The position numbers and the translations under genes were made by a program. Under the pieces are notes generated by a model that was not told the origin of the DNA, ran no database searches, and saw only the letters and a list, made by a program, of their open reading frames with translations. This document shows positions 464-26,550 of a stretch of 32,458 bases of DNA, piece by piece. This stretch comes from Chloroflexota bacterium (GTDB lineage Bacteria; Chloroflexota; UBA6077; SHYK01): assembly GCA_035652535.1 (NCBI GenBank), contig DASRDP010000155.1, positions 1 through 32,458 of the forward strand. The letters are read 5' to 3'. Position 1 is the first letter of the stretch; every line of letters starts with the position of its first letter.

Positions 464-1431
464 ACCGAAACGCCCCAGACGATCTTCATGAGAAGGCCGA
501 TACTGTACGTGATCGCCACGCTTGCCCCGGTGAGTAAGAGGTTGGTCGCGGTGCGTCGTTTGAGCGCCATCCCCGCAACAAATGACAGCAAGCCCGAAAC
601 CAGCACGACCGCGATCGCGGCTGCGACGACCGACGCCCAGATCGAGTTTGCGCCGAACACAACGGGCAGGATGGGCACGAGCGCCCCGGCGACATACCCG
701 AGACCAACCAGCCTGGCAGCGCTGACCGGTCGTTCAGGAGTCGCGGCTCTTCCTTCAACGTTGCCCAGGAAGTGCTGTTTGCGGAGCTCGGTGCCACCAA
801 CTTCGGCCTCAGAACTGGCAGCAGAATAGGCACCAGCCGCCATCGAGAAACCCCCGGCCACCGCGACGCTTGCCGCTGCGGGCAGCACTAGAGCCGTGCT
901 CCCGAAGGCGGCGAAGAATCCGCTCATCGCGCCGACCATCTCCACCAACCCGTCGTTGAACCCCAGCAGCACGTTGCCCACCCGCTCCGGCCTGACCCGA
1001 TTCCCTGAGGTTTCCGAGACAATCGCGTCTTCGTGCTGGAACTCATCCTGGAGCACGGAGCGGATCGGTCCTTCGAGCGCCGTTTCCCGATAGCGCTCCC
1101 ACAGGCTCAGATATTTCGCGATTCCACGGACCTCAATGGCTTCCAGAACGAGGTACACGGCAGCGTCACCGAACAGGCGGCAGGTCACCAACAGAACCCA
1201 CAGCTTGACCTTCCGCGTCCAGTCCAGGCGCTCGATGCGAACGCCGAACAGCTCTTGCCACACATCTCGGTGCTTCGTTTCGGTCTGCATCAGTGCTGCG
1301 AGCGTCTGCGCTAGGGCGCCGGTCGTCTGGGGCCTGAGCGACGTGTAGAGCGACAGATCGAACAGCTCGTCGAGTATGAGCCGCCTGGCTGTGTGCGGAT
1401 CGATTGGGACCGGCGTCCCCATGGCGCTCAC
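460..1431 (-). CDS. MbfA-like protein: ferritin-like domain fused to VIT1/CCC1 transporter
   Basis: The 323-residue protein has two parts. Residues 15-145 form a ferritin/rubrerythrin-like helical domain with candidate metal ligands in DELFDLSLY, E51-x-x-H54 (ETKHRDVW) and DEFQHED. Residues 150-323 form a VIT1/CCC1 membrane domain with the NVLLGFNDGLVEMVGAMSG signature and several hydrophobic segments. The same architecture occurs in MbfA, an inner-membrane iron exporter of alphaproteobacteria, and VIT1/CCC1 proteins move Fe2+ or Mn2+. Iron or manganese export or detoxification is therefore the likely role, by family inference. The GTG start at 1431 is chosen because GAGG lies 6 nt upstream; an ATG at 1422 is the alternative. 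It converges on the LCP gene. Confidence 0.85.
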   Translation of the reverse strand: MSAMGTPVPIDPHTARRLILDELFDLSLYTSLRPQTTGALAQTLAALMQTETKHRDVWQELFGVRIERLDWTRKVKLWVLLVTCRLFGDAAVYLVLEAIEVRGIAKYLSLWERYRETALEGPIRSVLQDEFQHEDAIVSETSGNRVRPERVGNVLLGFNDGLVEMVGAMSGFFAAFGSTALVLPAAASVAVAGGFSMAAGAYSAASSEAEVGGTELRKQHFLGNVEGRAATPERPVSAARLVGLGYVAGALVPILPVVFGANSIWASVVAAAIAVVLVSGLLSFVAGMALKRRTATNLLLTGASVAITYSIGLLMKIVWGVSV

Positions 1432-1794
1432 GTCCGGCCTCGGTGCGTCAACGCGCCTGGAGAGCTATGCGCGACTCTGAGGAACCTCATACGCTCGTCA
1501 ATGGGCACGGATGCGCTCCTTCCGTCGATCGGCGGCCGGCGAGTTAAGGCTGTCCTGACGGAGAGAAACTGGCGATCCGATCGGGAGCCGTACTGTGTGC
1601 TGCGCCTGAGACCAGCATGGAGTCAGTGGGAGAAGCCCGACCACACCCAGATGGGTGGCGCGTCACGGGCTTTCGGGTAGTTCCGCCGACGCGCGGAACC
1701 GCCTGATTCGGATCCTTTGGCCACGGTATTATTCAGCCCGAGCCCTGACTGGCTTGTCACCTCGCGTGACTGCTCACACGTGCGGAGGTGGAGG
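1432..1794. other. Divergent intergenic region between VIT1 and molybdopterin-subunit genes
   Basis: This 363-bp gap separates two divergent genes. I see no convincing gene in it. It holds a perfect 7-bp inverted repeat (GTTCCGC/GCGGAAC, 6-nt loop) at 1680-1699. A TATTAT hexamer at about 1728 could be a -10 element for the gene starting at 1795, but no good -35 is visible. Short open frames here lack family signatures and ribosome binding sites. Confidence 0.4.
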
Positions 1795-4080
1795 ATGGCC
1801 GCGGCTGTGCCCTTTACCGTCGTTGGGAAGGCGATCCCTCGCGTCGAGGGACCGGACAAAGTGGTCGGCCGGGCGACCTACTCCGCCGATGTGACGCCGC
1901 GGGACGTCCTGTGGGCGCGGAACGTTCGCAGCCCATATCCCCACGCTCGGATCGTCGCAATCAAGAAAGACCGCGCGCTCGCGGTACCCGGCGTCCGCGC
2001 CGTCCTGACTGCGGCGGACTTCCCCAACCGACTCATCGGGCGCCGCCTCAAGGACAACCCCGTCCTATGCGGAGACCGCGTCCGATTCGTGGGAGACAAG
2101 GTCGCCGTGGTGGTGGCCGACGCGCCGGATGCGGCGGAGGAGGGCGCGCTTCGCGTCGATGTGGAGTATCAGGAGCTGCCGGCCGTATTCGATCCCGTGG
2201 CCGCCATGGAGCCGGGCGCGCCCCTCGTGCATCCAGACGTCCGATCGTACGTCGGGTTCGACGCGGAGATTCCGGCGGGGATACCGAACGTGTGCGCCTA
2301 CCAGGTGTGGGGCCGAGGCGATCCCGCCGATGGATTCCGGGAGGCGGACGTCGTGGTCGAGAACACCTTTCGTACGCACCTCTCCCACCAGGGCTACCTC
2401 GAGCCCTCATCCTTTGTGGTCGCGATCACCAATCGTGCCGACGGGCGCGGCGATCGAGTTGAAGTCTGGGCCACGAACAAGGTGCCCTTCAATCTGAGGA
2501 GCGAGCTGGCGACCATCATCGACCGGCCGGAGGACGACATTCTGATCCATCCGGTCACCGTTGGAGCCGACTTCGGCTCCAAAGGGGCTCCGGGAGACAT
2601 TGCGACCGCGTACTATCTGGCGCGGCAGCTCGGCCGTCCGGTCAAGTTCGTCAACTCAGCCAACGAGGATCTGACTGCGACGTCGCCTCGACATCCATCG
2701 GTCGTCACCCTTCGGTCCGGCGCGCGACGCGACGGGACGATCGTCGCCTGGGACGCGAGAGTCATCTTCAACAGTGGAGCGTATGGCGCCTTCAAGCCAT
2801 CGGCAAACGGCATGCTGGGCGGGGCGGCGCGAGCCGCGGGCGTCTATCAGATCCCGAATTTCCGCATCGAGGCGTACTGCATCTACACGAATCAGGTTCC
2901 CTGTGGATACATGCGCGCACCGGGTTCGCCGCAGGTCCTCTACGCCGTTGAGGCGCAGATCGACTTGCTCGCGCGCGAGCTGGGCATGGACCCGGTGGAG
3001 CTGCGCGAGCGGAACCTCCCCCGGCGGACGCACGATGGGCGTGAAGACGTCTCGCGTCAGGTCCTCCGGGAGGCGGCGCTCGCCATCGACTGGGATCGTC
3101 GGACATCGTCACGGCGGAGCGCCGATGGAACACGCTTGGTTGGACGCGGGGTCAGCATCGTCATGCGGCAGACTGGCGTGGGGGAAGGCTCGTCCGATGT
3201 AACGGTGAATCCCGACGGCACGATCACGGCGGTGACGGCGATGCCCGACAACGGGACCGGCGGCCTGACGGTAGTGGCGCAGGTCGTCGCGGAGAGCTTC
3301 GGCGTCCCGATGAGCCGGGTGCGGCTAGTTCGAGGCAGCACCGACGCCCTCCCCGTCGACGTGGGCGCGGGCGCGAGCCGGATGACGAACGTAGCCGGCC
3401 ACGCCGCCATCGACGCGTGCGAGCAGGTGAAGGCGCAGCTTACGCCGCTGGCAGCGCAGGCGCTCGGAGCGGCGGAGGCCGACTGGGTACGCGCCGGCGC
3501 CAGCGGCACGGGACAGGGTGGATGGCGAGCCCCGAACGGGCGCTTCCTGTCGCTCGAAGACCTGGCGACCGAGATGGTCCGGCCGGGCGATCCCGCCGCG
3601 CACGCCCAGGTAACCATTACGACCCCCCGCAGCCCCGACGTCGGCTACTGCACCCAGGCGGCGGAAGTGGAGGTCGACCCAGAAACCGGCGAGGTTCGCG
3701 TCTGTAAGATGGCGAGCGTGCAGGACGTGGGAACGATTATCAACGCTATCGGCCATCAGGGGCAGATCGAAGGCGCCATTGTCCAGGGCATGGGCTACGC
3801 CATGATGGAGGAGCTGGCAACGGACCAGGGGCGCATCACGACGGGCAACTTCGGGGACTACAAGGTTCCAACGATGCGCGACCTGCCAGAGCTCACGACC
3901 GTCAACATTCGGACGACGGGGCCCGGGCCCTTCGAATCCAAAGCGATCGGCGAGATCCCGATCATGCCGACCGCGGGCGCCCTGGCCAACGCGGTCGCCG
4001 ACGCCATCGGCGCCCCGATCACCGAGCTGCCCATCACCCCCGAACGCGTCCTCAATGCGCTGGAGCGGGTGAACGCCTAG
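1795..4080 (+). CDS. Xanthine dehydrogenase family molybdopterin-binding (large) subunit
   Basis: The 761-residue protein is a full-length Mo-pterin subunit of the xanthine dehydrogenase/CO dehydrogenase/aldehyde oxidase family, which hydroxylates aldehydes or N-heterocycles with water as oxygen donor. It opens with VGKAIPRVEGPDKVVGRATY, typical of the family. GADFGSKG near residue 257 corresponds to the GGGFGGK cofactor loop. RAPGSPQ at 374-380 and DVGTIINAIGHQGQIEGAI are further cofactor-domain blocks. KAIGE near the C-terminus places the catalytic base at Glu720. The ATG at 1795 follows GGAGGTGGAGG; an upstream ATG at 1717 adds 26 residues that do not resemble the family. No FAD or 2Fe-2S subunit gene is adjacent, so its partners must be encoded elsewhere. 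The substrate cannot be read. Confidence 0.9.
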   Translation: MAAAVPFTVVGKAIPRVEGPDKVVGRATYSADVTPRDVLWARNVRSPYPHARIVAIKKDRALAVPGVRAVLTAADFPNRLIGRRLKDNPVLCGDRVRFVGDKVAVVVADAPDAAEEGALRVDVEYQELPAVFDPVAAMEPGAPLVHPDVRSYVGFDAEIPAGIPNVCAYQVWGRGDPADGFREADVVVENTFRTHLSHQGYLEPSSFVVAITNRADGRGDRVEVWATNKVPFNLRSELATIIDRPEDDILIHPVTVGADFGSKGAPGDIATAYYLARQLGRPVKFVNSANEDLTATSPRHPSVVTLRSGARRDGTIVAWDARVIFNSGAYGAFKPSANGMLGGAARAAGVYQIPNFRIEAYCIYTNQVPCGYMRAPGSPQVLYAVEAQIDLLARELGMDPVELRERNLPRRTHDGREDVSRQVLREAALAIDWDRRTSSRRSADGTRLVGRGVSIVMRQTGVGEGSSDVTVNPDGTITAVTAMPDNGTGGLTVVAQVVAESFGVPMSRVRLVRGSTDALPVDVGAGASRMTNVAGHAAIDACEQVKAQLTPLAAQALGAAEADWVRAGASGTGQGGWRAPNGRFLSLEDLATEMVRPGDPAAHAQVTITTPRSPDVGYCTQAAEVEVDPETGEVRVCKMASVQDVGTIINAIGHQGQIEGAIVQGMGYAMMEELATDQGRITTGNFGDYKVPTMRDLPELTTVNIRTTGPGPFESKAIGEIPIMPTAGALANAVADAIGAPITELPITPERVLNALERVNA

Positions 4081-12302: not shown

Positions 12303-14570
12303 TCAGCCGCGGGCAGCGTCGAGCGCGGCCTGGACCCGCGCGGGTGTGAAGGGCACCTGGCGAACTCGGACGCCGACGGCGTCGAAGATGGCATTGGCAA
12401 TCGCCGCGGTGACCGGGCACGATGCCGGCTCGCCCACGCCGCTGGGCGGCAGCTCGGGGTGATCGATCAACACAATGTCCACGTCCGGGACTTCGCTGAA
12501 GGTCAAGATCGGATACGAGACCCAGTCCACGCTCGTGACGTTCGCCTGGTCGAAGTGCAGCTCCTCTTTCAGCGCCCGGCTCGTGGTCTGAATCACGTTC
12601 CCCTCGATCTGGTTTCGCACGCCGTCAGGATTGATGATCTGTCCGCAATCGTGGGCGACGGTGGCGCGCTCCACCCGCACCGCGCCGCTGGACCGGTCCA
12701 CGCGAACGTCCGCGATCATGGCAACGTAGGTGCGCCCACGCAGCGCCAACGCCACGCCGCGACCGCGGGCGGTTCCGTCAACGTTGGCCTGGGGAACCGA
12801 GCGCGGCTCCCATCGCGCGCGCTCGGCGGCGGCCTTCAGGACCGCAATGGCGCGGGCATCGGTCAGGTGCGCGAGTCGGAACGCGATAGGATCGGCCTTG
12901 GCGGCAGTGGCCAGCTCATCCATGAAGGACTCGATGGCAAACGTCGTCGCGACCTGCCCCGGCGCGCGCAGTGGATGGGAGCGCAAGACGGCGGACTGGA
13001 GCTGGCGCACCACCTCCCGAACCGCCCCGCCAAAGGCGTATCCGACGTGTGGCTCGCCGCCCCACGGCGTCGAGCGAGCAGGTGGCCCATCTGGCGCGGC
13101 CAGCTCCTGATTGAGGAGGCGCTCGGTCAGGATGTCGTTGTAGAAGTGGCTGGGGGTAAGGGCTTGGTAGTCCCAGGCGGTCACGCGGCCCGCGGAATCG
13201 AGCCCGCCCTGGAGGTCCATGATCATGGCAGGACCGGCGTTCGCCCATCGGTGCTCGTCCTGGCGCATCCACTGGAGCCGAACCGGGCGACCGACCTCCT
13301 GCGAGAGGATGGCCGCGTCCATCGTCGCATCGTCCGCGCCGTTGCTCCCGTAACAGCCCGCGCCGGGCGTCCACACGACACGGACGCTCTCGACCGGGAG
13401 CCCGAGCAAGCGCGCTGCCGTCTGGCGGGCGCGATGAGGTCCCTGGGTGGGCGACCAGATCGTGGCGCCATCCTCGCGCACGTCCGCCACCGCGCACGAC
13501 GGGCCGATGGACCCATGCGTCTGATACGGGTAGAGGTACGTCGCTTTGACCACCCGCGACGATGTGGCCAGCGCCTGCTCCATGCCACCGCTGTCCGAGA
13601 CGACGTTCTCCTCACTGGGAACGGCGCGCATAAGGCTATAGAGATCGGCCTCTTTCGGAAGGCCTGCCCAATCCGACCAGGTGACGTTCAAGCGCTCGGC
13701 GGCGTCGATCGCCTGCTCCTCGCGTTCCGCCACCACACCGACGAAGTTGCCGCGCACGATGACGCGGACGATGCCCGGCAGGCCGGTGATAGCGCCGTCG
13801 TCGACGTGCAGGAGATTCGACCCGATGGCGGGTGGCTTGATGACACGCGCATGGAGCATCCCAGGCAGGCGGACGTCCTGGACGTAGGCCGGAGCACCGG
13901 TGAGCTTGGCCGGTAAGTCCATCCGAGAAACCGGCTGGCCGACGATCGTGTACTCGCTCGCGCTCTTCGGCTCCGCCTCGCCCGTCACTTCCCGCTCGAA
14001 TCGCCGTCCATCCAGCAGCTCGCCGTACGTCACCTGTCGCAACGGTTCGCCGACGACACTCACGAGCCCATCCTCGACCGTGAGCGCGTCCGCTGGAGCG
14101 CCGAGCCTCTCCGATGCGAGCTGGAGGAGGACATTGCGCGCCTCGGCAGCCGCCTGGCGCACCTGAACGCCACCCGAGGAGATCGAGCGGCTCCCATCGG
14201 TCGCTCCCTGATCTACGGTGAGCGCCGTATCGCCCATCACGACGTTCATCCGGTCGAGGGCGACGCCCAGCTCTTCCGCCGCGATCTGCGCCATGGCGGT
14301 TTGCACCCCGGTTCCCAGCTCCACCTTGCCTGTAAAGAGCGTGACGCTGTTATCAGGGGCGATCGAGAGCCAAGAGTCCAGAAGGTCCGCGGGCACGGGC
14401 CTCCCGCCCTGGGCCAGCGCCGTGGTGGCGCGTGGGGTCGCCGCCCCCAGGAAGCTGAACCCAATGACAAGCGCGCCGCTAGCTTTCAGCAGGTCTCGAC
14501 GGGTGATCTCCTGGTAACCGAGCGTCTCGATGGCGGTCCGGGCTTCTAAAAGGCGACGGTCGCCCCTCAT
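12303..14570 (-). CDS. iorB: Isoquinoline 1-oxidoreductase-type molybdopterin subunit (IorB-like), Tat-exported
   Basis: The 755-residue protein is the large Mo-pterin subunit of the two-subunit IorAB class. A Tat signal is present: TRRDLLKASGALVIGFSF with the twin arginines at 24-25, followed by a cleavable-looking ALAQGG. The family opening DSWLSIAPDNSVTLFTGKVE and ELGTGVQTAMAQIAAEELG follow. RAPGQVATTFAIESFMDELA, HDCGQIINPDGVRNQIEG and GVGEPASCPVTAAIANAI complete the cofactor domain, with catalytic Glu714. It probably hydroxylates an aldehyde or N-heterocycle in the periplasm and passes electrons through the 2Fe-2S partner. The ATG at 14570 overlaps the partner's TGA (ATGA), with AGGAGGTG upstream, so translation is coupled. 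The substrate name rests on family resemblance only. Confidence 0.9.
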   Translation of the reverse strand: MRGDRRLLEARTAIETLGYQEITRRDLLKASGALVIGFSFLGAATPRATTALAQGGRPVPADLLDSWLSIAPDNSVTLFTGKVELGTGVQTAMAQIAAEELGVALDRMNVVMGDTALTVDQGATDGSRSISSGGVQVRQAAAEARNVLLQLASERLGAPADALTVEDGLVSVVGEPLRQVTYGELLDGRRFEREVTGEAEPKSASEYTIVGQPVSRMDLPAKLTGAPAYVQDVRLPGMLHARVIKPPAIGSNLLHVDDGAITGLPGIVRVIVRGNFVGVVAEREEQAIDAAERLNVTWSDWAGLPKEADLYSLMRAVPSEENVVSDSGGMEQALATSSRVVKATYLYPYQTHGSIGPSCAVADVREDGATIWSPTQGPHRARQTAARLLGLPVESVRVVWTPGAGCYGSNGADDATMDAAILSQEVGRPVRLQWMRQDEHRWANAGPAMIMDLQGGLDSAGRVTAWDYQALTPSHFYNDILTERLLNQELAAPDGPPARSTPWGGEPHVGYAFGGAVREVVRQLQSAVLRSHPLRAPGQVATTFAIESFMDELATAAKADPIAFRLAHLTDARAIAVLKAAAERARWEPRSVPQANVDGTARGRGVALALRGRTYVAMIADVRVDRSSGAVRVERATVAHDCGQIINPDGVRNQIEGNVIQTTSRALKEELHFDQANVTSVDWVSYPILTFSEVPDVDIVLIDHPELPPSGVGEPASCPVTAAIANAIFDAVGVRVRQVPFTPARVQAALDAARG

Positions 14571-15034
14571 GACCGCACCTCCTGGGCGTAGCGGGCCACG
14601 GCCCGGAGAATGCGCAGGTGGGTCCCGCACCGACACAGGTTTCCGTCGAGGGCATGCCGGATTTCGTCGTCATCCGCGTTTGGGTTGCGGTCGACGTACG
14701 CCTTCGCGGTCATGATCATGCCGTTGATGCAATACCCGCATTGGGCGGCCTGTTCGTCGATGAACGCCTGCTGAATCGGATGGGGGTCGTCCTCGGTCCC
14801 AAGCCCCTCGAGCGTCGTGATCTCAAAGCGCGCCGCGCGGCTCACCAATTCCTGACACGACCGAGCCGCCTGGCTTCCGATAATGACCGTGCAGGCCCCA
14901 CATTGCCCGAGGCCGCAGCCGAACTTTGGGCCGCTGAGGCCCAGGTCGTTACGCAGCACGTAGAGCAGCGGTGTGCTCGGATCCACGTCAACCGTGTACG
15001 AGCCTCCATTTACCCGAAGCTCGATCTCGCTCAT
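14567..15034 (-). CDS. iorA: (2Fe-2S)-binding subunit of IorAB-type molybdenum hydroxylase (IorA-like)
   Basis: The 155-residue protein is the small iron-sulfur subunit. The plant-type ferredoxin domain carries Cys40, Cys45, Cys48 and Cys60 (FGCGLGQCGACTVII...SC). The helical second domain carries Cys99, Cys102, Cys134 and Cys136 (QCGYCINGM and NLCRCG). All eight ligands for two 2Fe-2S clusters are therefore present. It relays electrons from the Mo centre of the IorB-like partner to an external acceptor; no FAD subunit gene follows, as usual for this class. It has no signal peptide and would be co-exported with the Tat-signal partner. The ATG at 15034 has AGGAGGAGC upstream. It is the first gene of the three-gene operon and diverges from ubiD. 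Confidence 0.93.
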   Translation of the reverse strand: MSEIELRVNGGSYTVDVDPSTPLLYVLRNDLGLSGPKFGCGLGQCGACTVIIGSQAARSCQELVSRAARFEITTLEGLGTEDDPHPIQQAFIDEQAAQCGYCINGMIMTAKAYVDRNPNADDDEIRHALDGNLCRCGTHLRILRAVARYAQEVRS

Positions 15035-15249
15035 GCGCTCCTCCTGGCTTCGCGAGTGCTCCTCCCTCGTCTGTCCATCATATCTCACCGCAAGGCCGCG
15101 TATCCGAGCAAATTCGTGGGCCCTGAGCGGCGCCCGAGACGTGCCGCATGCTCCGGCAAAACGCGGCCTACGGGCCAAATGGCGAACGGCGCAGTACTAT
15201 TCCGTTGAGGCGAACATTCGATGTTTGGAAATTCCCGGAGGAGGCCAGG

Positions 15250-20566: not shown

Positions 20567-20878
20567 TCAGCCGTACTTCTTGACGATTCCCTCGACAGTT
20601 CCGAGGCCCTTCTGAAGATCTTCGGCGCTCATGACCGGGGTCATCTCGATTTCGGCGTCGAGTCCAAAAAAGAAGCGCTCGGCCACTTCTGCCACCTGGG
20701 ACGACTCGGTCATGTTGATCACGAAGAAGCCGGCCCGGTCGCCCAGCTCGGGATAGAAGTACGCCGCCTCGGGCTTCAGGTCCTCCTGCAGCATCTGCAT
20801 GACCTTCGCGACCCGACCGCTTCGCAGCGCGTCGTTGCCAACGTCGGTCGGGAATCGGAACTTCACCATCATGCGCAT
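20567..20878 (-). CDS. DUF3303 / muconolactone-isomerase-like small dimeric alpha-beta barrel protein
   Basis: The 103-residue protein begins MRMMVKFRFPTDVGNDALRSG and alternates strand-helix-strand (YFYPELGDRAGFFVINMTES, then SSQVAEVAERFF, then AEIEMTPVMSAEDLQKGL). This is the ferredoxin-like pattern of small dimeric alpha-beta barrel proteins such as DUF3303 and muconolactone delta-isomerase relatives. No catalytic residue set can be assigned, so the function is unknown; isomerisation of a ring-cleavage product would fit the neighbourhood but is inference. The ATG at 20878 has GAGGAG about 7 nt upstream. It diverges from msrA across 76 bp. Confidence 0.7.
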   Translation of the reverse strand: MRMMVKFRFPTDVGNDALRSGRVAKVMQMLQEDLKPEAAYFYPELGDRAGFFVINMTESSQVAEVAERFFFGLDAEIEMTPVMSAEDLQKGLGTVEGIVKKYG

Positions 20879-20954
20879 CGCACTCTCCTCACGTGGTGTA
20901 GGATGGGGACGTTCGCGGGTCAGATCGAGAACCTCTTATCGGGGACAAGGGATT

Positions 20955-21506
20955 ATGCAGGAATCGGACGAGCAGCGTGAGATCGCGACCTTTGGCGGCG
21001 GCTGCTTCTGGTGCCTGGAGGCCGTGTTTCTCCAGCTCCGCGGCGTTGAGCGCGTCGTGTCCGGCTACGCCGGCGGTCATGTCGCGAATCCATCCTACGA
21101 GCAGGTATGTACCGGCGCCACCGGTCACGCGGAGGTCACGCAGGTCACCTTCGACCCCACGGTGACTTCCTATCGCGATCTCCTGGACGTCTTCTTCACC
21201 ATCCACGATCCGACGACACTCAATCGCCAGGGACACGACGTCGGCACGCAGTACCGGTCCATCATCCTCTATCACACCGCCGAGCAGCACGCGGCCGCCC
21301 AGCAGACGATCGCCGCCCTAACCGAGCGGGGCCTGTTCGATGCGCCCATTGTGACCGCCGTCGAGCCGCTGACTGCCTTTTACCCGGCCGAGGAATATCA
21401 CCAGAACTATTTCGCGCGCAACCCATTCCAGCCCTACTGCCAGGTCGTCGTCGCGCCGAAAGTCGCGAAAGCCCGGAAGGACTTCATCGAGAAGCTGAAG
21501 CGCTGA
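20955..21506 (+). CDS. msrA: Peptide methionine-(S)-S-oxide reductase MsrA
   Basis: The 183-residue protein has the complete MsrA signature. GCFWC contains the sulfenic-acid-forming Cys17; GYAGGHVANPSYEQVCTGATGHAE is the substrate-binding loop region, here named in parts. DPTTLNRQGHDVGTQYRS and AEEYHQNYF complete the family, and Cys162 in PYCQVVVAP is a candidate resolving cysteine. It reduces methionine-S-sulfoxide in proteins and free form with thioredoxin. The ATG at 20955 gives standard length; the ribosome binding site (AAGGG) is modest. Together with the peroxiredoxin-like gene 3 kb away it adds thiol-based oxidant defence to the window. It converges on the MFS gene with an 8-nt gap. 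Confidence 0.96.
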   Translation: MQESDEQREIATFGGGCFWCLEAVFLQLRGVERVVSGYAGGHVANPSYEQVCTGATGHAEVTQVTFDPTVTSYRDLLDVFFTIHDPTTLNRQGHDVGTQYRSIILYHTAEQHAAAQQTIAALTERGLFDAPIVTAVEPLTAFYPAEEYHQNYFARNPFQPYCQVVVAPKVAKARKDFIEKLKR

Positions 21507-23832: not shown

Positions 23833-24624
23833 ATGGCCACGACGCTGCCCTTGACACAGCTCGAGCGGGAGCTTCGGCAAAAGGTCGCCACCTCGTGCCG
23901 GATCATCGGAAACCGCAACGTCACACGTGGCGCCCTGGGGCACGTGAGCGCGCGCGTTCCCGGCACCGACCGCATTTTGATCAAGGCGAAGGGCCCGGAT
24001 GAGGAGGCACTCGAGTTCGCCGTCGAGCGCGACGTGATCGTCATCAGCATCAACGGTGAGGTGCTCGAAGCGCCGGATGGGCTGACGGCTCCCAACGAGA
24101 CGGCCATGCACCTCGCGGTATTTCGGCGGCGCCCAGAGGTCATGAGCGTCATCCATAGCCATCCGGACTGGGTGGTGGTGCTCACCGGAACGAGTCGGCC
24201 GCTGGTGCCGATGGTCGGCGCATACGATGGCGGCGCCTCGCTCCGACTCATCACCGAGGGCGTTCCGGTCTACCCGCGAAGCCTCACCATCATCAACGAC
24301 GAGCTGGGCGAAGACTTCATGAACACGATGGGGGACCATCGCGCTTGCCTGCTCGCCGGCCACGGGATGACGGTGGCGGGAGCGAGCGTGGAGGAGGCGA
24401 CCCAGACGAGCCTCACCGTCTACGAGCTGGCCCGCCTCAACTACCTCGCCTATGCCATTGGCCAACCGCAGGCAGTCTCCGAGCAGGACCGTACGGAGTA
24501 TCTGGCTCGCCGCGCCTCAGGCCCGTATACACCCGATCGTCGACGGGCGGGAAGCAGCGGCGAGCCCGCCTTCTGGCGCTATGAGAAGAAGCGTCTCCCC
24601 GACCTGCCGAAGAACGGCCGCTGA
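23833..24624 (+). CDS. Class II aldolase/adducin family protein
   Basis: The 263-residue protein has the zinc site of L-fuculose/L-ribulose phosphate aldolases and epimerases: His108 and His110 in IHSHPDW, His177 in AGHGMTV, and Glu89 in PNETAMH. The N-terminal RNVTRGALGHVSARVPG corresponds to the substrate phosphate/anion loop usually read as GN-x-S-R. Members cleave or epimerise sugar phosphates, or decarboxylate hydroxyacids of aromatic pathways such as 3,4-dihydroxyphthalate. The ATG at 23833 follows GGGGAGG; an in-frame TTG at 23818 is less likely. A strong hairpin terminator follows the stop. Confidence 0.9.
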   Translation: MATTLPLTQLERELRQKVATSCRIIGNRNVTRGALGHVSARVPGTDRILIKAKGPDEEALEFAVERDVIVISINGEVLEAPDGLTAPNETAMHLAVFRRRPEVMSVIHSHPDWVVVLTGTSRPLVPMVGAYDGGASLRLITEGVPVYPRSLTIINDELGEDFMNTMGDHRACLLAGHGMTVAGASVEEATQTSLTVYELARLNYLAYAIGQPQAVSEQDRTEYLARRASGPYTPDRRRAGSSGEPAFWRYEKKRLPDLPKNGR

Positions 24625-24682: not shown

Positions 24683-25261
24683 TCAGGACGAATGATGGTG
24701 CGCGCCATCTCCGGCTGCCCGAGCCCGCGCGCGCTCCAGCACGTCCTCCGGTAGGTTGAAGGGGTCCCAGTCTCGACGGATCTCGCTGCTGATCTGGCGA
24801 AAGTCGCGGCGAAGGTCGTCCAGGGAGGCGCGGCCCCAGTAGTAGTAGCCGTTGTAGATCTTATAGATCCGAAGGTCCGGATACAGGACGAAGTCAAACG
24901 GCAGATACGGCTTGTGACGAAGATCGGTCGGCTCCAAGAGGCCCAGCTCCTGCTGAACCACGCGCTCCGCGTCCGATAGGATCGGGAATTTGGCTCCCAG
25001 GCCGGCGCGAAACGCGGCGTTCACCTCAACCGGGTCGACGCTCACCGCGACGATCTTCGCATAGGCCACGGCAAGCTCGGGCTCGAATTCCGTCAGCAGG
25101 CGCAACTGCACCTGACATTTTCCTCACCACCATCCCCGATAGAAGACGACGGCGAGCGGGTCCGCGCCGCGCGTGATCTCTGAGAGACGAACCACGGTTC
25201 CGGTGTGGTCGGGCAGTGCAATGTCGGGGAACTTCCCTCCGACGGCCAGGTCTGAGCGCAT
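24683..25261 (-). CDS. Peroxiredoxin-like (AhpC/TSA) selenoprotein with in-frame TGA (Sec46)
   Basis: Read from the ATG at 25261 the frame encodes 192 residues if the TGA at 25124-25126 (codon 46) is read through. The start has a strong GGAGGT 5 nt upstream. The N-terminal part (VGGKFPDIALPDHTGTVVRL) and the part after the TGA (QLRLLTEFEP, VAVSVDPVEVNAAF, FPILSDAERVVQQELGL) are adjoining stretches of one thioredoxin-fold peroxiredoxin-like domain in one frame. The TGA falls in FYRGWW-U-GKCQVQL, aligned with the peroxidatic Cys of RG-x-WCP-x-C relatives; Cys49 would be the resolving partner in a U-x-x-C site. A bacterial SECIS-like hairpin follows. The likely role is reduction of peroxides or disulfides in the cytoplasm. 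A nonsense mutation or sequencing error is the alternative. Sec machinery is not in this window. Confidence 0.78.
25097..25114 (-). promoter_or_regulatory. Candidate bacterial SECIS hairpin
   Basis: In the mRNA, a stem CAGGUGC/GCGCCUG (7 bp, one U-G pair) closes an AGUU apical loop with G in the second position. The loop starts 16 nt after the UGA. Known bacterial SECIS elements have the apical loop about 16-37 nt after the UGA and a conserved G in its first two bases; the E. coli fdhF element also shows GCAGGU at its tip. The outer pairing (G with C across a bulged U) could extend the stem. Confidence 0.6.
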
Positions 25262-25262
25262 C

Positions 25263-25319
25263 TCAACCTCCACGGATCTCTTCCGTGGCAACGATCATAT
25301 CCTCGATCTTGCCTACGCG
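25263..25319 (-). CDS. Possible 18-19-codon upstream ORF before the selenoprotein gene
   Basis: ATG at 25319 opens a short frame, MRVGKIEDMIVATEEIRGG, whose TGA ends one base before the ATG of the selenoprotein gene. Its last codons contain that gene's GGAGGT ribosome binding site. A GGGGCGTGAG stretch precedes the ATG. It could be a translated leader or chance; no family is recognised. Confidence 0.25.
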   Translation of the reverse strand, partial: RVGKIEDMIVATEEIRGG

Positions 25320-25425: not shown

Positions 25426-26550
25426 ATGGCAGTCGAGACCGCGGGCACGACGCAGCCGGAGACGCAAGAGGCGACTGGCTCACCGTACGAGCGATGGGTT
25501 GCATCGACGGGGGTACCCGTCTACCGCGGATACTACGTGGAGGACGTTCGGACCCTCGAGCTGGGAGAATGGCCCGAGCGGCAATGCCGCGCACGGTTCC
25601 TCATGCTGGCCGGCCAGGAGGGGATCTCCGAGGCTCGCGTCACGGAGATTGCGCCAGGCCATACGCTCCCGCCCGTTCGGATGGCTCTCGACGAAATCGT
25701 GTACGTGGTCCAGGGCCGCGGGCTGACCACCCTGTGGGGTCGGCAGGACGACCAACGCATCACCTTCGAGTGGCAGGATCACAGCGTCTTTGTGATTCCG
25801 CGCACCTATGCATGCCAGCTTTCCAGCACTCAGGGCACGACCCCTGCGCGCCTGCTGCACTACAACTACCTGCCGGTCGCGATGTCCGTCATGCCGTCCG
25901 CGGACTTCTTCTTTGACAACGGGTACGTCGACGCGGCGGTTGTGGGCGGGGATGGAGCAAGCCTCTTCTCCGAAGCTCGCGTCGCGACGGGGCCCGACGC
26001 GAATGGCCATCCCTTCTGGTCGGGGAACTTCTTCCCGGATATGCGAGCGTGGGATCGGCTCGTGCCGTACCGCGCGCGCGGCGCAGGAGGCCACGCCGTC
26101 TTCATCGAATTCCCGCGGGCGCCCATCACCGCACACATGTCCGTGTTTCCTGCGCGCTCGTACAAGAAGGCCCATCGCCACGGTCCTGGCGTGGTGATCA
26201 TCATTCCCGCGGGCGAGGGCTATTCCATCATGTGGGAAGAGGGGAAAGAGAAAATCGTGATTCCGTGGCACGAGGGGAGCGTCTTCGTGCCGCCGAACCG
26301 GTGGTTTCACCAGCACTTCAACGTCGGCGGCGATGCGGCGCGGTACTTTGCGTTTCACTCGCCGAGCGGGCTCTTCCCGTATAGCGAGAAGGTCGAGGAC
26401 CTGGCACGCGACCAGATCGAGTACTGCGATGAAGACCCGTCGATTCGCCAGCGATTCGAGATCGAGCTGGGGAAGCGCGGCCTCAAATCCATCATGCCGG
26501 ATGGCGCCTACAGGCAGCGTGACTACCAGTGGGAGTACCAGGAGGGGTGA
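25426..26550 (+). CDS. Double-cupin domain protein (second paralogue)
   Basis: The 374-residue bicupin is the paralogue of the protein at 19443-20564. Both share the opening Y-x-x-WVA plus a GYYVEDV/GHRVEDV-type segment, a first barrel (ALDEIVYVVQGRGLTTLW) and a second barrel. The second barrel here has His250 and His252 (KKAHRHGPGVVIIIPAGEGYS) and His295/His297 (NRWFHQHFNVG). Only the second barrel keeps a full set of metal-ligand histidines. The first barrel's motif has no histidine here (PPVRMALDE), where the other paralogue has PQRHMFEE. The substrate is unknown. The ATG at 25426 has GGAGG 5 nt upstream; a TATGAT hexamer at 25351-25356 may be the -10 element. It diverges from the selenoprotein gene and ends 10 nt from the convergent PRC-barrel gene. 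Confidence 0.8.
   Translation: MAVETAGTTQPETQEATGSPYERWVASTGVPVYRGYYVEDVRTLELGEWPERQCRARFLMLAGQEGISEARVTEIAPGHTLPPVRMALDEIVYVVQGRGLTTLWGRQDDQRITFEWQDHSVFVIPRTYACQLSSTQGTTPARLLHYNYLPVAMSVMPSADFFFDNGYVDAAVVGGDGASLFSEARVATGPDANGHPFWSGNFFPDMRAWDRLVPYRARGAGGHAVFIEFPRAPITAHMSVFPARSYKKAHRHGPGVVIIIPAGEGYSIMWEEGKEKIVIPWHEGSVFVPPNRWFHQHFNVGGDAARYFAFHSPSGLFPYSEKVEDLARDQIEYCDEDPSIRQRFEIELGKRGLKSIMPDGAYRQRDYQWEYQEG

Follow-up and report, generated by a model that had tools for sequence, protein, structure and literature searches.

A probable selenoprotein with an AhpC/TSA fold and selenocysteine at codon 46 in a Chloroflexota genome

The gene described here lies in a 32,458-nucleotide stretch of Chloroflexota DNA (the window) and very probably encodes a selenoprotein with selenocysteine (Sec) at codon 46, a thioredoxin-fold oxidoreductase of the AhpC/TSA superfamily. 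The window belongs to a draft genome of 168 contigs that is 98.3% complete. Insertion of Sec at codon 46 is what we infer from computed features, namely an alignment column occupied by TGA or Cys, a SECIS hairpin, the Sec machinery of the host, the fold, and the register of the active site. The features of the gene are listed in Table 1.

Table 1. Positions in the window of the predicted selenoprotein gene and associated features.
Feature	Position	Strand	Details and basis
AhpC/TSA-fold (Prx-like) gene, predicted to contain Sec	24683-25261	minus	192 codons plus final TGA; translation, PF00578, AF2 model
In-frame TGA, codon 46, predicted to be read as Sec	25124-25126	minus	All homologues read have Cys or TGA here
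Cys49 codon (U46-G-K-C49), putative Sec partner	25115-25117	minus	Peroxidatic position of true peroxiredoxins in alignments
Predicted bacterial SECIS stem-loop	25091-25117	minus	Core 25099-25112, GGTGC-AGTT-GCGCC; loop AGTT 25104-25107
GGAGGT, Shine-Dalgarno-like, 4 nt before ATG	25266-25271	minus	Sequence
Spurious 142-aa ORF with GTG start, lacking the active site	24683-25111	minus	Mechanical ORF calling

Reading frame and homologues

Translation of 24683-25261 (minus strand) yields M...FYRGWW-*-GKCQVQL...HHHSS* with exactly one internal stop, in agreement with an initial annotation that had proposed a single frame running through one TGA at codon 46 from an ATG preceded by GGAGGT. With codon 46 read as Cys, the frame constitutes one AhpC-TSA domain (PF00578, residues 7-129, E=3e-19; 69.6 bits against a gathering threshold of 26), and the part beyond the TGA is indeed the remainder of that same domain. 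Ordinary ORF rules return only the 142-amino-acid piece from GTG 25111, as had also been foreseen, and gene finders would misannotate the protein as this shortened fragment.

Homologues were searched in 29 genomes of the class, 400 genomes of the phylum, and 110 genomes of another class. A paralogue on a second contig of the same genome (L002 on C154; 62% identical) has TGA at the codon-46 column, in the context FFRGWY-U-PKC, and the same column holds TGA in G026 (UGKC), G027 (UPKC), G014 (UPKE), G313 (UPKD), G061 (UPKE), and G447 (UPKE), which together with the window gene amounts to eight genes in seven genomes and four family codes. The remaining homologues that were read (about 35) have Cys at this column, always as C-P-K-[DE]. 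The in-frame TGA thus stands where homologues have Cys, the pattern of a bacterial selenoprotein, and since seven more genes also have a TGA there, its presence at 25124-25126 is not a matter of chance. Most family members have a single conserved active-site Cys. Of 36 proteins, 32 have Asp or Glu at position 49 and the four close Sec genes alone have Cys there; U-x-K-C is confined to the window's own lineage. In these four genes 82 residues are invariant while their codons mostly differ synonymously, before the TGA as well as after it, a sign that the sequence downstream of the TGA is still under purifying selection.

A maximum-likelihood tree of 41 proteins, which predates the discovery of G447, requires four changes of the Sec label, and well-supported branches force at least three of these. 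Sec and Cys have therefore been exchanged repeatedly, at least three to four times, and each exchange could have gone in either direction. The second Sec paralogue of the genome (L002) is nearer in the tree to the single copy of G026 (L032) than to the window gene, which suggests that the two Sec copies of the genome diverged before these genera split. The selA gene is present in every TGA genome checked (a check that did not extend to G447) and in 38 of the 43 genomes checked, most Cys genomes included, so that co-occurrence alone is not discriminating. An Aquificaceae match (L008) was rejected as a homologue, being a short pattern match with a broken frame, and TGA marks in G278, G363, G284, and G342 were rejected as Sec since they lie off the active site, where the codon is TGC.

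SECIS hairpin, Sec machinery, and alternative decodings

A bacterial-type SECIS element is predicted to follow the UGA; synonymous sites within it are conserved, and its conservation is in part due to compensatory changes. In the window gene, as in the three Sec genes closest to it, 16 nt separate the UGA from the AGTT loop (GGTGC-AGTT-GCGCC), and codons +5 to +8 (GTG CAG TTG CGC) are identical in these four genes, which overall share one codon at only 15 of their 82 invariant columns and at no other invariant Leu column. In a distant Sec gene (L062) the AGTT loop is kept on a CCAGC/GCTGG stem, with pairs changed on both sides. Across seven Sec genes, 88.6% of the cells of the helix are paired (70% in shuffles), three pairs show a change on both sides, and the covariation score was reached by 1 of 500 shuffles. 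A complete 5-bp stem with an AG[GT]T loop at a spacing of 16 is found in five of the seven Sec genes and in none of 34 Cys genes; within the window, such a stem and loop match one of 64,790 positions, and as the window gene itself has the hairpin, this single match is the gene's own site. Moreover, relative to synonymous shuffles the region is more stable in Sec genes (mean z -1.57) than in Cys genes (+0.23; Mann-Whitney p=2.5e-4, for genes that are related to one another).

The published bSECIS rule specifies a loop of 3-9 nt with G in its first two positions, a stem of at least 4 bp, a spacing of 16-37 nt, and an MFE of -7.5 or lower (PMC13188914). The window gene has the AGTT loop, a spacing of 16, and -13.0 kcal/mol, which answers the suggestion of the initial annotation that a bacterial SECIS be sought downstream of the UGA. 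All seven Sec genes pass the rule, but so do 9 of 34 Cys genes and 62 of 144 random codon positions. Because of this laxity the rule was replaced by codon conservation, controls with Cys homologues, and the hairpin in its exact form, and it is this specific conserved hairpin that carries the case. One Sec gene (L064) passes by means of another hairpin, located further downstream; L076 folds similarly and apparently also uses a different downstream hairpin. Rfam models at gathering thresholds gave no match in the whole window.

The host genome encodes tRNA-Sec with anticodon UCA (69.5 bits; cut-off 47), SelB (366 bits, summed), SelA (558 bits), and SelD (380 bits), and hence the full set of selA, selB, selC, and selD that a bacterial selenoprotein calls for and that the initial annotation had proposed to look for. 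SelD is a selenoprotein by its own in-frame TGA, in the motif HCSG-U-ASK (L026/L074, G000:C130:8956-9882).

These data bear on three other readings of the TGA at codon 46. In a draft assembly, and at a position where one base separates TGA from the Cys codons, one might think of a pseudogene with a true stop, or of a sequencing or assembly error for TGC or TGT, but this is very improbable given that eight genes from seven genomes and four family codes carry TGA at this column and that invariant residues continue beyond it under purifying selection. Similarly, translation from GTG 25111 could give a real 142-residue protein lacking the active site, as the frame is open and the GTG is kept in the four closest Sec genes; this is the least credible reading, since the 45 upstream codons encode conserved protein sequence preceded by a Shine-Dalgarno motif and ATG, the fragment would start too late to include the catalytic loop or the first strands of the fold, and the hairpin explains why the GTG is conserved.

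Near-cognate readthrough of UGA occurs in bacteria, and either unspecific readthrough or a reassigned code that puts Trp or Cys at the TGA would be in keeping with a residue at a Cys column. Such decoding is nevertheless highly unlikely in view of the complete Sec machinery, the specific conserved SECIS, and the use of TGA as the terminal stop of both the window gene (24683-24685) and the neighbouring aldolase gene (24622-24624). The latter observation supports the earlier view that recoding is local, with the final TGA still terminating. Taken from comparative sequence evidence, codon 46 of the window gene is almost certainly decoded as Sec.

Fold, active-site register, and proposed reaction

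With codon 46 read as Cys, the full-length AlphaFold (AF2) model of the protein is a confident one, with a pLDDT of 89.2 and a pTM of 0.83. The best solved folds in Foldseek are the peroxiredoxins BcpB, Bcp4, and AhpE (8.8e-12 to a peroxiredoxin), with ResA close behind, and both fold and Pfam score place the protein in the AhpC/TSA superfamily. The product is probably a single-domain, cytosolic protein.

The initial annotation had assigned Sec to the peroxidatic Cys. The catalytic column of an AhpC/TSA-like protein was correctly recognised, but profile alignments with PrxQ-type proteins and with the PrxQ and the TxxU-type peroxiredoxin of the genome itself match position 46 to the Thr or Ser of TxxC and the peroxidatic Cys (Cp) to position 49, by which the placement of Sec relative to the peroxidatic Cys is corrected. 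In alignment with ResA, positions 46 and 49 are the first and second Cys of CxxC, and the invariant Pro121 falls on the Pro of LPTT; the genome's TxxU-type peroxiredoxin has Arg at the Pro121 position. This register and the Pro121 match to ResA argue for a thioredoxin/ResA-like site within an AhpC/TSA frame.

A selenoprotein acting as a peroxiredoxin-type peroxidase, with Sec as the peroxidatic residue in canonical geometry, would suit the peroxiredoxins among the best fold matches as well as the single conserved Cys of most members, which resembles that of 1-Cys enzymes. This reading is rather unlikely, as U46 aligns with Thr/Ser and not with Cp. The TxxCp motif of canonical peroxiredoxins is not found in the family, which has Sec or Cys at the Thr position and mostly Asp or Glu at that of Cp.

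In the proposed decoding, SelB would bind the AGUU hairpin immediately downstream of the UGA and bring Sec-tRNA(Sec), so that codon 46 is translated as Sec, and the final TGA would terminate translation. The first long helix begins with Sec46, which occupies the site of the nucleophilic Cys of thioredoxin and ResA, and Cys49 follows one turn on. Most likely the selenolate of Sec46 would attack a peroxide or an oxidised thiol and Cys49 would resolve the product to a U46-C49 selenenylsulfide, which a thioredoxin-type reductant could recycle. Since most members have one active-site Cys, resolution by Cys49 cannot be a family-wide mechanism. In our estimate the chances that the reaction is peroxide reduction are about even, and thiol-disulfide exchange is a tentative, somewhat less probable candidate.

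Relation to known selenoproteins and genomic context

Prx-like selenoproteins with a UxxC motif have been known since at least 2005 (PMC1088965, PMC2398784, PMC13188914), and a 2026 review includes Prx-like PF00578 proteins with UxxC/UxxU in addition to a UxxC redoxin family (PMC13188914). The suggestion that the U-G-K-C version may be undescribed therefore does not hold for the UxxC type as such, but the RGxx-U-x-K-[CDE] group is outside the models of NCBIfam release 20, none of which claims it (best 29.9 bits against 140). A UxxD/UxxE motif is absent from the main text of the review (PMC13188914). Like the Prx-like thiol:disulfide oxidoreductase selenoproteins (PF00578, UxxC/UxxU), the window protein combines an AhpC-TSA domain with a thioredoxin-like UxxC that replaces TxxU (PMC1088965, PMC13188914). 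As far as published descriptions go, it differs from this type, whose reference protein is WP_010940744, in the context RGxx-U-[PG]-K-C, and in that its nearest Cys homologues have C-P-K-[DE] without a second Cys.

With ResA/TlpA thiol-disulfide oxidoreductases the protein shares the CxxC position and the Pro before a later strand; unlike these, it has no signal or anchor evident in its sequence, it carries a C-terminal extension that contains a YNGYY..GR motif, and most of its homologues lack a second Cys. SelL itself is a UxxU protein. All five A1 members give low-scoring matches to the NCBIfam subfamily of SelL-related redox proteins (NF040769; best 2.7e-8), and the window protein stays below the cut-off of that model (29.3 bits against 120).

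Sec peroxiredoxins (PF00578, TxxU) share the superfamily and the bacterial SECIS logic with the window protein, but their Sec occupies the true peroxidatic position, three residues beyond that of Sec46. The genome has one of these (L004; G000:C25:23208-23531, minus strand), a Prx-like gene with an in-frame TGA in AFSGG-U-TEEL, an apparently lipoprotein-type N-terminus, and a hairpin with a CGTGA loop after the UGA.

Whether the RGxx-[U/C]-[PG]-K-[C/D/E] proteins form a selenoprotein family not yet catalogued is evenly balanced in our judgement. Such a family would include several Sec/Cys exchanges, two or more separate lineages with an AGU(U)-loop SECIS at identical spacing, and one lineage in which a Cys at +3 turned a one-thiol site into a Sec-Cys pair. 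The group adds missed and misannotated members to selenium proteins of a general kind already known. Moreover, CPKD, CPKE, UPKD, UPKE, and UxKC form a natural series in one fold and in related bacteria that bears on why Sec replaces Cys, and that could allow the value of Sec and that of a resolving Cys to be measured separately.

Among the window, C154, G026, G027, and G014 no clearly conserved neighbours were found, and gene context consequently gives no help on mechanism. Similar double-cupin proteins are encoded near both Sec paralogues, at 25426-26550 (plus strand) in the window, where the gene is adjacent and divergent, and at 590-2074 (minus strand; L072) about 6 kb off on C154; the neighbours scanned in G026 and G027 include no such protein. 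The window also encodes a redox-repair enzyme, a peptide methionine sulfoxide reductase (20799-21506, plus strand; PF01625) in the Cys form GCFWC. Finally, ORF translations alone point to large molybdenum hydroxylase (CO/xanthine dehydrogenase-like) subunits and a 2Fe-2S subunit at 1717-4080, 12303-14636, and 14567-15178.
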